A stretch of DNA of 64,000 nt from Terriglobia bacterium. Lineage in GTDB: Bacteria > Acidobacteriota > Terriglobia > Bryobacterales > Bryobacteraceae. The DNA is taken from contig JAIQFE010000001.1 of the NCBI GenBank assembly GCA_020073445.1, positions 310,001 through 374,000 on the forward strand, given 5' to 3'. A program made the translations under genes and the position numbers. Below, one piece after another: positions 16,130 through 21,979 of this stretch (position 1 is the stretch's first letter; each line of letters starts with the position of its first letter). The notes under the pieces were generated by a model. It was not told the DNA's origin. It did not search any database and saw only the letters and a program-made list of their open reading frames with translations.

Positions 16130-16501
16130 ATGAATACTTCTATTCTCCGGCGCCTGATTGCGCCCCTGATAGCCTGTGCTCTCTTGATCGGCGTGGCCGC
16201 GGCCCAAACCAAGGACGCTTCGAAGACTGCGACCACCAAGACGCCTGCGAAAGCAGCGGATACCGCCAAAGCAGACACGACGAAAAAGGCTGGCGCCCTG
16301 CTCGATATCAACTCCGCCACCGCGGACCAGCTTAAGGCCCTGCCGGGCATCGGCGATGCGTATTCCGCGAAAATCATCGCGGGCCGGCCCTACGCCAAGA
16401 AGGACCAGCTGGTATCGAAGAGCATCGTTCCGCAGGCCACCTACGACAAGATCAAGGATTCGATCATTGCCAAGCAAGGCACCGCGACGAAGAAGAAGTA
16501 G
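16130..16501 (+). CDS. Exported helix-hairpin-helix protein, ComEA-like
   Basis: 123 residues from ATG 16130. A signal peptide ([17 protein letters not shown]) is followed by a Lys/Thr/Ala-rich linker (residues 25-55). Then comes a helix-hairpin-helix module beginning [26 protein letters not shown] in two pieces ([18 protein letters not shown] and the following residues), ending [10 protein letters not shown]. ComEA-type HhH proteins bind double-stranded DNA non-specifically in the periplasm during natural transformation; many relatives are uncharacterised. The stop overlaps the start of the radical SAM gene by one base, so they share an mRNA, though a functional connection is not obvious. 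Confidence 0.82.
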
Positions 16502-17832
16502 TGACGGTTGTCCTTATCTCCACGTATGAGCTCGGCCACCAGCCGTTCGGGCTGAGCTCGCCCGCGGCCTGGCTCGCCCGGGAGGGCCATGACGTGGCGT
16601 GCCTGGACCTGGCGGCCGGTACCTTCGATGAAGCTCCGGTTCGGGCCGCGGACCTGGTCGCCTTTTATCTGCCGATGCACACGGCGACGCGGCTGGCGAT
16701 GCCGGTGATCGAGCAGGTGAGGCGGCTCAACCCCACCGCACGCCTTGTCTGCTACGGCCTGTACGCTCCCCTGAATGCAGACCTGCTGCGCGGGCTCGGC
16801 GTCGAAACCGTGATTGGCGGAGAGTTTGAAGCAGCGCTCGTGGAACTCGCGAACGGCGAGAAAGTCTCCACCCGAAGCATCGACCGCCTCACCTTCATCA
16901 CACCTGATCGCCGAGGTCTGCCGGGCTTGGAATCGTATTCCCATCTGCGGCAAAACGGGAGCAAAACAACCGCGGGATACACCGAGGCTAGCCGCGGCTG
17001 CAAGCATCTGTGCCGGCACTGTCCGGTGGTTCCGGTCTATGACGGACAATTTCGCGTGGTTCAGCGCGAGGTGGTGCTCGAAGACGTCCGGCAACAGGTT
17101 GCCGCGGGCGCGCGCCACATCACGTTCGGCGACCCCGATTTCTTCAACGGACCTACGCACGCCATGCGCATCGTGGAAGCGTTCCATGCCGAATTTCCCG
17201 AAATCACTTACGACGCCACCATCAAGATCGAACATCTCAAGCAGCATCGCGAGCTGCTGCCGGCTCTGAAGCAGACCGGCTGCCTGTTTATCACCAGCGC
17301 GGTCGAATCCATTGACGATTCCGTTTTGGCCCTGCTGGAAAAAGGCCACACACGTCAGGATTTCTACGAGGTTGCCACGTCTGTGCGCGAGACCGGACTG
17401 TCACTCCAGCCGACGTTCATCGCTTTCATGCCCTGGACCACCATCGAAGGCTACGGCGCGTTATTGCACGCGATCGCGGAATTGGAGCTTGTTGAGAACA
17501 CGGCGCCCGTGCAGCTCGCATTGCGCCTGCTGGTCACGCAGAAGTCGCGGCTGCTGGACCTGCCCGACATCCGGGCTGTGATCGGCCCATTTGACCAAAA
17601 GGCGCTGGTGTATCCGTGGAAGCATCCCGTTCGGGATGTCGACACGCTGGCGAATTTGGTGTTCCAACTGGTGAGCCGCCGCCAGGATGAGAACAAAACA
17701 CGCGCCGAAATCTTCGGTGAAATCTGGGAGCTGGTTCTGCATACTCCGGCTCCGACGCTTCGGCCGCAACCCCCGGTTCCTCATCTCGACGAGCCCTGGT
17801 ATTGCTGCGCCGAACCGGCACCGCAGGTCTGA
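16501..17832 (+). CDS. CCAEP-tail B12-binding-type radical SAM protein
   Basis: 443 residues. The N-terminal ~140 residues resemble the B12-binding fold seen in many radical SAM enzymes, though without a clear DxHxxG motif. The radical SAM cluster motif is CKHLCRHC (C-x3-C-x2-C) near 171-178, followed by FGDPDFFNG and TYDATIKIEHL. The chain ends in tandem cysteines C435-C436 in the tail CCAEP. I recognise this as the CUAEP/CCAEP-tail radical SAM family, in which some members carry selenocysteine at the second Cys; here both codons are TGC. The ATP-grasp gene follows 3 bp later, a pairing that suggests a two-enzyme modification or peptide-ligating pathway. The reaction is unknown. Confidence 0.85.
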   Translation: MTVVLISTYELGHQPFGLSSPAAWLAREGHDVACLDLAAGTFDEAPVRAADLVAFYLPMHTATRLAMPVIEQVRRLNPTARLVCYGLYAPLNADLLRGLGVETVIGGEFEAALVELANGEKVSTRSIDRLTFITPDRRGLPGLESYSHLRQNGSKTTAGYTEASRGCKHLCRHCPVVPVYDGQFRVVQREVVLEDVRQQVAAGARHITFGDPDFFNGPTHAMRIVEAFHAEFPEITYDATIKIEHLKQHRELLPALKQTGCLFITSAVESIDDSVLALLEKGHTRQDFYEVATSVRETGLSLQPTFIAFMPWTTIEGYGALLHAIAELELVENTAPVQLALRLLVTQKSRLLDLPDIRAVIGPFDQKALVYPWKHPVRDVDTLANLVFQLVSRRQDENKTRAEIFGEIWELVLHTPAPTLRPQPPVPHLDEPWYCCAEPAPQV

Positions 17833-17835
17833 GTC

Positions 17836-19050
17836 ATGAAGCGAGTGCTGTTGGTCGCCGCGACCACCGGATATCAGGTCCGCGAATTTGCAGAAGCCGC
17901 CCGCGCGCTCGAGGTCGAACTCGTTCTCGCTACCGACCGCTGTCACATCCTGGAGAATCCCTGGGGCGACGATGCCGCCCCGGTTCGTTTCGAGGACCCC
18001 GAGCCAGGCATCGAGGCATTGGCCGCACGCGGGCCCTTTGACGGAATCCTCGCGGTGGGCGACCGTCCTGCGTGCGTGGCGGCTCAGGCCGCCGAACGTC
18101 TCGGCTTGCGTTTCCATCCCGCCGAGGCGGCTCGCGCGGCGTCGAATAAGCTGCTCGCGCGGGAACATTTTCGAGCCGCCGGAATGCCGGTCCCGGAGTT
18201 TCGGCGGATGCCGGTCGCGGAAGCCTCTCCCGCAGGCGTCCGGTTCCCCTGCGTTCTGAAGCCGCTCGATTTCTCCGGCAGCAGAGGCGTCATCCGCGCT
18301 AACAACCCGGAGGAATTCCGCGAAGCGGCCGCTCGAATTGGCCGCATGCAAGACGGCGACTTAATCGTCGAAGACTACATTCCGGGCCGCGAATTCGCTC
18401 TCGAAGGCGTGGTTACTTCCGGGAGGCTCCAAACCCTGGCGTTGTTCGACAAGCCCGACCCTCTGGAGGGGCCTTTCTTCGAAGAGACCATCTACGTCAC
18501 CCCCTCCCGCGAGCCTGATCGGGAGCCAAATGACGTCCAGCAACAGATCCGCGAGACGGCCCAGGCTGCCGTGACCGCCCTGGGATTTACGGACGGCCCG
18601 GTGCACGCGGAATTGCGGGTGAACGGTCAGGGTGTTTGGATTCTTGAGGCCGCCGCCCGGCCGATCGGCGGGCTATGCGCGCGCGTGCTCCGTTTTCGCG
18701 CCCCTTTTTGTACACTGGAACAGCTACTGCTCCGCCACGCGCTGGGCGAAGATGTTTCGGCCGCAAGGCTGGCGCCGGGAAGCCATGGAGTAATGATGAT
18801 CCCGATCCCTCATTCGGGGGTATATCGGGGGGTGAGCGGGGTCGAAGATGCCCGCACGGTGAAGGGGATAGAAGATATCGTGATCACCGCCAAGGAGGGC
18901 CAGGAAATGCTTGCGCTTCCGGAGGGCTCTACCTATTTGGGCTTCCTGTTCTCTCGGGGTGAATCCGTCGATCTAGTACTGAATGGGCTGCGGGAAGTAC
19001 ATCAGCGCTTAAAGTTTGGGTTGTCTCCCGCGCTTCCGATCGTAAAATAG
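17836..19050 (+). CDS. ATP-grasp domain protein, partner of the radical SAM protein
   Basis: 404 residues. An N-terminal Rossmann-like pre-ATP-grasp domain (1-105) is followed by ATP-grasp motifs: PCVLKPLDFSGSRGVI, IVEDYIPGREFALEGV, and the metal-binding HAELRVNGQGVWILEAAARP. The C-terminal part is PurK/BL00235-like. Such enzymes form carboxylate-amine or thiol bonds through an acylphosphate. It begins 3 bp after the radical SAM stop, with no intervening promoter, so the two are one unit. The following gene, ugd, is 7 bp downstream with its own TAGGAG, and may be part of the same transcript. Substrate unknown. Confidence 0.84.
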   Translation: MKRVLLVAATTGYQVREFAEAARALEVELVLATDRCHILENPWGDDAAPVRFEDPEPGIEALAARGPFDGILAVGDRPACVAAQAAERLGLRFHPAEAARAASNKLLAREHFRAAGMPVPEFRRMPVAEASPAGVRFPCVLKPLDFSGSRGVIRANNPEEFREAAARIGRMQDGDLIVEDYIPGREFALEGVVTSGRLQTLALFDKPDPLEGPFFEETIYVTPSREPDREPNDVQQQIRETAQAAVTALGFTDGPVHAELRVNGQGVWILEAAARPIGGLCARVLRFRAPFCTLEQLLLRHALGEDVSAARLAPGSHGVMMIPIPHSGVYRGVSGVEDARTVKGIEDIVITAKEGQEMLALPEGSTYLGFLFSRGESVDLVLNGLREVHQRLKFGLSPALPIVK

Positions 19051-19057
19051 GAGCTTC

Positions 19058-20416
19058 ATGAACGTCGCAATCCTTGGAACAGGCTATGTCGGACTGACCA
19101 CCGGAGCCTGCCTAGCTTACTTAGGTCATGAGGTCACGTGCGTTGACCCGGATGCCGGCAAGATCGGCGCTCTCCAGCGCGGGGAAGTTCCCTTCCACGA
19201 GCCACATCTGGAAGACCTGCTGGTGGCGGCCCGGCCGAATTTAAAGTTCACCATGGACTATTCGGAGGCCATTCCCGACGCCCAGGTGGTGTTTATCGCC
19301 GTGGGCACGCCCCCCGGCGTGGGAGGCGCACCCGATCTTCGCTATCTGCAAGCTGCCGCCGAGGGCGTTGGCGAGCGTTTGGGCCATCACTTCACCGTGA
19401 TCGTGAACAAATCCACGGTGCCGATCGGAAGCGGTAACTGGGTAGGCGCGCTGGTGCGCGATGCGGCCGAGCGCCGCGGGCGCGGCAAGGATTGTTTCGC
19501 CGTGGCTTCGAATCCCGAGTTTCTCCGCGAAGGCAGCGCGCTGCTCGACAGCCTGTACCCGGATCGCGTGGTGATCGGCGCCGATGATCCTCGGACCGCC
19601 GAGGTGCTCTACACGCTGTATCGCCCGATCCTCGATCAAACCTTTCAGCCGCCTTCGTTCTTGCCGCGGCCGGACCGCGTGGGCGGCGTGCCGCTGATTT
19701 CCACCGATCTCGCTTCGGCCGAACTGATCAAGTACGCTGCCAACGCGTTCCTGGCGCTCAAGATCAGCTATATCAACGAAATTGGACAACTCTCCGAGAA
19801 AGTCGGCGCGGATATTTCGCAGGTAGCCCGCGGCATCGGCTTGGACGCCCGTATCGGCACGCGCTTTTTACAAGCCGGCATCGGGTGGGGCGGATCGTGT
19901 TTCGGAAAGGACACCGCCGCACTGGTATCGACGGCATCCGAATACGGGCTCGATATGCAGATTGTAAAGGCCGCCCGCGACGTCAACAAGCGTCAACGGG
20001 AACGGGTGGTGGAGAAACTTCTCGGCGAGCTGAAGATCCTCAAGGGCCGTACCGTCGGCTTACTGGGTCTGGCATTCAAGCCGCACACGGACGATCTGCG
20101 GGAGGCCCCGGCGCTGGACGTCGCGCGGCATCTTCTGGAACGCGGCGCGCGCGTGAAGGTCCACGATCCGGTCGCGATGAGCCGGTTCAAGAAAGAACAT
20201 TCCGGCATGGATGTCTGCATGGCCAACGACGCGCACGAAGTGGCTCGGGATGCGGATGCAGTGGTCCTGGTCACCGAATGGCCGCAGTATCTGGAATTGG
20301 ATTGGGAATCGCTGGCGTCTGTGATGCGAACCCCCATCCTGTTGGACACACGGCACGCGCTGGATCGCGGGCGCATCACCCGCGCAGGATTCCGCTACAT
20401 CACGCTGGCTGGCTGA
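19058..20416 (+). CDS. UDP-glucose/GDP-mannose dehydrogenase family protein
   Basis: 452 residues of a normal UDP-sugar dehydrogenase. NAD-binding GTGYVGL is at residues 7-13, then VGTPPGVGGAPDL, NPEFLREG, the catalytic-Cys motif WGGSCFGKD, and the C-terminal GLAFKPHTDDLREAP. It oxidises UDP-glucose to UDP-glucuronate in two NAD-dependent steps (UGDH/TuaD); a GDP-mannose preference cannot be excluded. The product would feed capsule or exopolysaccharide synthesis. TAGGAG upstream supports the ATG at 19058. Confidence 0.93.
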   Translation: MNVAILGTGYVGLTTGACLAYLGHEVTCVDPDAGKIGALQRGEVPFHEPHLEDLLVAARPNLKFTMDYSEAIPDAQVVFIAVGTPPGVGGAPDLRYLQAAAEGVGERLGHHFTVIVNKSTVPIGSGNWVGALVRDAAERRGRGKDCFAVASNPEFLREGSALLDSLYPDRVVIGADDPRTAEVLYTLYRPILDQTFQPPSFLPRPDRVGGVPLISTDLASAELIKYAANAFLALKISYINEIGQLSEKVGADISQVARGIGLDARIGTRFLQAGIGWGGSCFGKDTAALVSTASEYGLDMQIVKAARDVNKRQRERVVEKLLGELKILKGRTVGLLGLAFKPHTDDLREAPALDVARHLLERGARVKVHDPVAMSRFKKEHSGMDVCMANDAHEVARDADAVVLVTEWPQYLELDWESLASVMRTPILLDTRHALDRGRITRAGFRYITLAG

Positions 20417-21649: not shown

Positions 21650-21979
21650 ATGGGTTGCGGTACTGGTGGGAGAGGGCCTAGCGTCGAAGAAACCAACAAA
21701 AGCGGACGTACAGTGATGTGCGTCAAGTTCCAGCGCGAGATGCCCGGCCTGGACGAGACGCCTTTCGATAATCCCCTGGGTCAGCGCATCTTCGAGAACG
21801 TCTCCAAGGAAGCCTGGAAGATGTGGATTGAGCAGATGAAGATGATCATGAACGAATACCGCCTCAACCTGGGAACCCAAGAGGCGCAGGAGTTCCTGCT
21901 CAAGCAGATGGAAGAGTACTTCTTCGGTGAAGGCGCCGCGCTACCGCCCGGCTTCGTTCCGCCCCAGGCCAAGAAATAG
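21650..21979 (+). CDS. yggX: YggX-like Fe(II)-trafficking/oxidative damage protection protein
   Basis: 109 residues. Residues 23-109 (CVKFQREMPGLDETPFDNPL, then GQRIFENVSKEAWKMWIEQM, ending in PPGFVPP) follow YggX, the small protein that protects Fe-S enzymes and binds Fe(II), with its key N-terminal Cys (MCVKFQ). ATG 21650 has GAGGGG 7 bases upstream and gives a 22-residue Cys/Gly-rich extension (MGCGTGG); ATG 21716 gives the standard family length of about 87. I keep 21650 because of its ribosome site. Same direction as the preceding small gene. Confidence 0.82.
   Translation: MGCGTGGRGPSVEETNKSGRTVMCVKFQREMPGLDETPFDNPLGQRIFENVSKEAWKMWIEQMKMIMNEYRLNLGTQEAQEFLLKQMEEYFFGEGAALPPGFVPPQAKK

Follow-up and report, generated by a model that had tools for sequence, protein, structure and literature searches.

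A radical SAM (seleno)protein with a CCAEP/CUAEP tail and a co-inherited ATP-grasp ligase as a candidate two-gene pathway in Acidobacteriota

Radical S-adenosylmethionine (SAM) proteins ending in CUAEP or CCAEP are collected in NCBIfam NF040546, which NCBI has named as a CUAEP/CCAEP-tail radical SAM (seleno)protein without assigning a function, and their sister family is ArsL (NF040542), which moves the 3-amino-3-carboxypropyl group of SAM onto As(III) (PMC8552651). Pairs of selenocysteine (Sec) and Cys have been proposed as metal ligands, with MerB-like partners, in the Sec-assisted organometallic (SAO) systems of Haft and Gwadz (PMC13188914). We analyzed a member of NF040546 and the ATP-grasp ligase gene that directly follows it in a 64,000-nucleotide stretch of a Terriglobia bacterium (GCA_020073445.1, contig JAIQFE010000001.1, positions 310,001 to 374,000), hereafter the window, taken from a host genome of 6.58 Mb that is 96% complete. 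The window protein has the same tail as the family in its Cys form, and selA was not found in the host genome.

The window radical SAM protein scored 604.5 bits against NF040546 (cut-off 500), which bears out its placement, by an earlier sequence-only reading of the window, in a family known for CUAEP tails; as NCBI had already named that family, the assignment itself is not new. The second-best model was ArsL, which matched residues 4-383 with 256.8 bits (cut-off 450), and the third-best reached 46 bits. Three ArsL proteins were 29-33% identical to the window protein and end in CCLKC; the two sister families share about 30% identity in the core and have adjacent C-terminal cysteines. Fold neighbours of the predicted model include the cobalamin structures TsrM, OxsB and TokK, together with AprD4, which is not known as a cobalamin enzyme, and no ArsL structure is among the fold matches listed; the AprD4 model gave 25 bits, against 257 for ArsL, and the B12-binding domain PF02310 gave 31.5 bits (cut-off 32.1).

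To assess how often the two genes occur together, 80 named loci with a homologue of the radical SAM gene were kept out of 534 relatives found. At 53 of them a ligase orthologue was present in the retrieved flanking sequence (10 kb at most), mostly directly downstream on the same strand, and 24 of the other 27 genomes carried it elsewhere (E 1e-82 or better, two split in pieces), so both genes were present in 77 of the 80 genomes; a contig end fell within 1.3 kb of the radical SAM gene at eight loci. Homologues lacking the ATP-grasp neighbour in most genomes, the outcome that the sequence-only reading had set against its own proposal, were thus not what we found. Among 61 relatives of the window genome, the radical SAM gene occurred in 24 (21 above the family cut-off and G009, G037 and G039 as fragments) and the ligase in exactly those 24 (E 4e-111 or better), while the remaining 37 held weaker radical SAM kin only (at most 86 bits) and no ligase orthologue (Fisher p 2e-17 for 24/24 against 0/37, kinship ignored). 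In 17 of the 24 the two genes are no more than 1 kb apart, and in the other seven they sit on separate contigs. As a side observation, one relative without the radical SAM gene (G033) encodes a 37%-identical, diverged ATP-grasp protein beside YggX, a common place of the ligase (L139, G033:C283).

A second set comprised 197 Acidobacteriota genomes, requested at a completeness of at least 90% and sharing G000 and G015 with the first set, in which at most 7 or 9 candidates per genome were scored, with thresholds of 1e-60 (radical SAM) and 1e-50 (ligase). By these rules 31 genomes had the radical SAM gene, 32 the ligase, 31 both and 165 neither, which places the ligase in 31/31 radical SAM carriers and in 1/166 other genomes; in 21 of the 31 the two genes are separated by no more than 3 kb. 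G103, a metagenome-assembled genome (MAG) with 92% completeness, is the sole genome to have the ligase alone. It belongs to the same genus as G088, in whose assembly the radical SAM gene (L159) is without an in-frame tail; the two may represent loss in progress or assembly gaps.

YggX (PF04362) was found near the pair at 41 of the 81 loci, window included, and often on the opposite strand just past the ligase. We considered it as a third partner and rejected it: 57 of the 61 relatives carry it, whether they have the pair or not, and we took it as shared synteny. That YggX looks syntenic by descent would also suit the explanation that the radical SAM gene and the ligase are independent neighbours kept together by Acidobacteria synteny. 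We regard this as scarcely credible, since co-inheritance persists where the two lie on separate contigs or in differing orientations and extends to MAGs labelled Chloroflexi, Methylomirabilota and Latescibacterota, while the control neighbour YggX occurs regardless of the pair. One pathway comprising the radical SAM protein and the ligase is the natural reading: the near-perfect co-inheritance in both genome sets and the 77/80 co-presence strongly support the proposal of a single uncharacterised pathway.

The window protein ends in EPWYC435-C436-AEP-APQV, and its open reading frame (ORF) and coordinates bear out a gene ending in adjacent cysteines within CCAEP. In an alignment of 78 of the 81 radical SAM sequences, window included (L050, L092 and L095 left out), E431, P432, W433, C435, C436 (U counted as C), A437, E438 and P439 were unvarying, and the CCAEP tail is therefore not a product of chance. 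At the position of C436, where the earlier reading had proposed to look for Sec codons, the codon is an in-frame TGA in 53 of the 80 homologous loci and a Cys codon in 27, while the position of C435 is Cys in all 80. Downstream of the TGA we located by hand a stem resembling a selenocysteine insertion sequence (SECIS), with six pairs, beginning 16 nt past the T of the TGA and allowed in two registers. At least five of its pairs form in 51 of the 52 Sec forms whose sequence is long enough, in 8 of the 27 Cys forms and in about 6% of shuffles, and the stem makes Sec the very probable reading of the TGA.

Stem statistics were computed from 44 of the 52 Sec forms, leaving out seven in the other register and L050 (whose radical SAM row is the same as that of L049), and relatedness of the sequences inflates the pairing and covariation scores. 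Paired cells made up 96.2% (86.8 in shuffles), 19 cells had changed on both sides (3.9 in shuffles) and the covariation score was 0.273 (0.104 in shuffles), values reached in each case by 0/500 shuffles, and slid versions of the stem gave lower scores. Two coarser measures were not outstanding in these 44 forms: 3 pairs had changed on both sides (2.3 in shuffles, reached by 211/500) and there were 6 further pair types (5.1 in shuffles, reached by 177/500). An Rfam scan of seven loci returned one tRNA and nothing else.

Among the 24 pair-bearing relatives, selA is present in all 17 whose tail has Sec, although in G028 it is split into two fragments below the cut-off, and selA was not found in six of the seven with a Cys tail, the window genome included; G030 combines selA with a Cys tail and so breaks a strict rule. 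On a tree of 84 rows, where the rows closest to the window are MAGs labelled Bryobacteraceae, Terriglobia and Bryobacterales (Acidobacteriota), the Sec/Cys label requires 12-13 changes, at least seven of them forced by well-supported branches. From the selA pattern and these repeated changes, Cys and Sec look interchangeable at the second tail position. The annotated protein of Thermomicrobium roseum (L119:8935-10371, NC_011961.1) ends in WFC, and the sequence continues TGA-GCG-GAG-CCG, which reads CUAEP, so this record probably misses its Sec tail.

AprD4-type radical SAM enzymes have auxiliary clusters, and the tail cysteines, or Cys-Sec, could likewise be ligands of an additional Fe-S cluster, or have a structural part in closing the substrate pocket, in a reaction otherwise unrelated to that of ArsL. 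SUF Fe-S assembly genes and an Rrf2 regulator do lie near the radical SAM gene in L087 and L117. Passages of PMC11048331 also propose the tandem cysteines of Dph1-Dph2 as cluster ligands. Selection for Sec at one of two positions would nevertheless be odd for a plain Fe-S ligand, and a BLAST search placed SUF core genes at only 2 of the 81 loci; we consider this explanation improbable.

The ligase matched PF13535 (ATP-grasp_4, 93.9 bits, cut-off 27) and PF18603 (LAL_C2, 44.2 bits, cut-off 29.4), in line with the description of an ATP-grasp gene 3 bp after the radical SAM gene. Its best solved relative is the L-amino acid ligase BL00235 of Bacillus licheniformis (E 2.9e-30), whose structure (PDB 3vot) is also the fold closest to the predicted model; the two have in common the ATP-grasp fold and the LAL_C2 domain, with 23% identity on the fold alignment, and the window ligase differs in being partnered with a radical SAM enzyme. 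Such a partnership is known from pyrrolysine synthesis, where the radical SAM enzyme PylB makes a new amino acid and the ATP-grasp enzyme PylC ligates it, yet the window ligase is not a PylC member (21.7 bits, cut-off 248.3). For the ATP-grasp alignment we used 34 of 54 matches. In-frame TGA codons in three ATP-grasp matches were examined as possible Sec codons and rejected, all being at gene ends.

Radical SAM and ATP-grasp enzymes are both known from work on ribosomally synthesized and post-translationally modified peptides (RiPPs; graspetide paper PMC8939145), and the pair might accordingly modify a ribosomal peptide, with the ATP-grasp enzyme acting in a graspetide-like manner. This we judge very improbable: the ligase is of the type that joins free L-amino acids, the genes sit on different contigs in the 7 of 24 relatives mentioned above, and small ORFs of 22-110 aa lying at most 1.5 kb from the genes numbered 2336 at 80 loci, their 14 largest families consisting of YggX and apparent out-of-frame shadows of larger genes.

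We tentatively favour, with a rough probability of 0.38, an ArsL-like aminocarboxypropyl transfer to a tail-bound thiophilic atom, after which the resulting amino acid would be ligated. In a first step the radical SAM enzyme, as a relative of ArsL, would cleave SAM to a 3-amino-3-carboxypropyl radical. The acceptor of this radical would be a thiophilic atom, either a metalloid or a heavy chalcogen, bound at the C-terminal Cys-Cys pair (Cys-Sec in most relatives), and the product would be an amino acid of the 2-amino-4-X-butanoate type. In a second step the ATP-grasp enzyme would activate a carboxylate with ATP and couple this product to a second amino acid or to an amine, yielding a dipeptide-like product. 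The analysis itself shows the family, the conserved tail, the Sec/Cys interchange, the kinship to ArsL and to L-amino acid ligases, the folds as predicted and the co-inheritance of the genes; we infer the mode of SAM cleavage, the role of the tail as element ligand, the identity of the element and the substrate of the ligase.

For comparison, we inspected 6 of 16 matches to ArsL on plasmids with flanks of 4-5 kb. An ATP-grasp gene was found at five of the six loci (two Priestia, Alicyclobacillus, Klebsiella and Pantoea; L120, L122, L150, L151 and L152), and the arsQ-arsL-arsM locus of Pseudomonas had none within 4 kb. Amino acids of the arsinothricin type may be built into peptides at the plasmid loci that combine ArsL with an ATP-grasp gene.

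Only three homologue genomes lack the ligase (L100, L105 and L116), and in all three the radical SAM gene has MerB-homologous or HgcAB-like genes close by, in which they resemble the SAO systems. The locus of Nonomuraea candida (L100, 10001-17385) has the appearance of a biosynthetic cluster, with a CCAEP radical SAM gene, a methyltransferase, an aminotransferase, two MerB homologues, DUF169, a WelO5-like protein (below the cut-off) and a LysE-type exporter (named by eye); the two MerB homologues are the sole PF03243 genes found in that genome. In a Methylocapsa MAG (L105), the only PF03243 gene is about 3 kb from the radical SAM gene. In a Terriglobia MAG (L116, 8465-13903), where no PF03243 gene was found, a Sec-tail radical SAM gene stands beside a DF family (seleno)protein, DUF169, a CpaM methyltransferase, an HgcAB-like fusion (329 bits, cut-off 285) and a protein with a weak resemblance to MerTP (34 bits against a cut-off of 180). 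MerB and HgcAB-like homologues were found by BLAST at none of the 78 other loci, the match in L087 being to the ferredoxin part; the contrast of 3/3 with 0/78 gives p 1e-5 in a post hoc test with n = 3, the 78 having been searched by BLAST only. DUF169 is likewise a neighbour of the radical SAM gene at L087, L096 and L097, in genomes that encode the ligase.

Several observations weigh against the ArsL-like transfer. The window protein falls far under the ArsL cut-off (256.8 against 450 bits) and lacks the RCCLKC C-terminus of ArsL, having CCAEP/CUAEP in its place, and none of 31 genomes bearing the pair or the radical SAM gene encodes a protein above that cut-off. The ATP-grasp proteins of the ArsL operons are only 25-26% identical to the window ligase, a distant kinship, and the ArsL and CUAEP pairings could therefore be convergent. 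Twelve proteins flanking ArsL in its operons (ArsM, ArsQ, ArsN1, ArsR, ArsB, an aquaporin and others) had no homologue by BLAST (E 1e-8) in flanks of up to 10 kb at any of the 81 CUAEP loci, and with arsenic-operon homologues absent there, arsenite is doubtful as the everyday substrate. The MerB homologues of L100 and L105 exceed the Pfam cut-off and fall under the stricter NCBI cut-offs for MerB. No organometal gene was found near the window pair: MerB-like and HgcA-like genes were not detected there by BLAST, Sao transport genes not having been searched for. Of the pair-bearing genomes, one among the 24 relatives and two among the four Chloroflexi MAGs searched contain PF03243, never on the contig of the radical SAM gene.

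The sequence-only reading had called the dicysteine tail redox-active. Such a tail would have parallels in the GCUG tail of thioredoxin reductase and in the Cys donors of radical SAM epimerases: the Cys-Cys or Cys-Sec pair would serve as redox relay or hydrogen-atom donor while a canonical deoxyadenosyl radical remodels an ordinary metabolite, whose product the ATP-grasp enzyme then ligates in the manner of PylB and PylC. We hold this alternative to be somewhat unlikely, and the redox claim itself was not borne out: the nearest family is ArsL and not AprD4, structure prediction places the tail and does not make it a swinging arm, and genes of the organometal type adjoin the three ligase-lacking members. 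Owing to this kinship and these neighbours, a tail that acts as ligand for a thiophilic element is at least as likely as a redox-active one. More broadly, the family may represent a widespread, selenium-assisted bio-organometallic branch, in which the Cys-Sec tail would present a metalloid or chalcogen to the aminocarboxypropyl radical, the near-obligately co-inherited ligase would help soil Acidobacteria and members of further phyla to make a dipeptide containing a metalloid (or selenium), and ligase-free members would perform like carbon-element chemistry in mercury- or corrinoid-linked clusters; taken as a whole, we consider this proposal unlikely.

Coordinates of the features in the window are given in Table 1. 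The GTG start of the radical SAM gene shares one base with the TAG stop of the upstream ORF, and its TGA stop codon (17830-17832) is separated by 3 bp from the ATG of the ligase at 17836. The cysteines of the CX3CX2C motif serve radical SAM enzymes as [4Fe-4S] ligands. The order of the ligase and the UDP-glucose dehydrogenase that follows it is kept in L123, L124 and L125, where the radical SAM gene is on another contig. No other general partner was found among the 45 largest clusters of ORFs of at least 90 aa at the 81 loci, and a PADLOC defence search returned no match for either protein.

Table 1. Position of the pair, its motifs and the downstream genes in the window.
Feature	Coordinates	Strand	Remarks
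CCAEP-tail radical SAM gene, 443 aa	16501..17832	+	GTG start, NF040546 rSAM_CUAEP
CX3CX2C motif codons (C167, C171, C174)	16999..17022	+	radical-SAM [4Fe-4S] ligands
Tail EPWYCCAEP, residues 431-439	17791..17817	+	C435 codon 17803-17805, C436 codon 17806-17808
ATP-grasp ligase, 404 aa	17836..19050	+	L-amino acid ligase (BL00235) type
C281 codon, motif IGGLC	18676..18678	+	invariant across 34 aligned ATP-grasp sequences
UDP-glucose dehydrogenase gene	19058-20416		starts 7 bp past ligase
YggX gene, Fe(II)-trafficking	21707-21964		PF04362 match

In the literature searched, CUAEP and RCCLKC were not found as words, nor were the pairing of this radical SAM family with an ATP-grasp enzyme and the mechanism proposed here, of which an earlier mention in papers by Haft is possible; the main text of the 2026 selenoproteome review (PMC13188914) gives no accession beginning NF0405, and its radical SAM passages seen here name other families. 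The co-inherited ligase turns an orphan selenoprotein family known by name only into a testable two-gene pathway, and predicts a partner gene in many uncultured genomes together with a specific and unusual cleavage of SAM. If the ArsL-like transfer is true, carbon-element bond formation of the ArsL type would extend far beyond the arsenic antibiotic, and the Sec of the tail would have a chemical reason, that of holding a soft element; if the tail is instead a redox relay or hydrogen-atom donor, the family would still make an unusual use of selenocysteine by a radical SAM enzyme.

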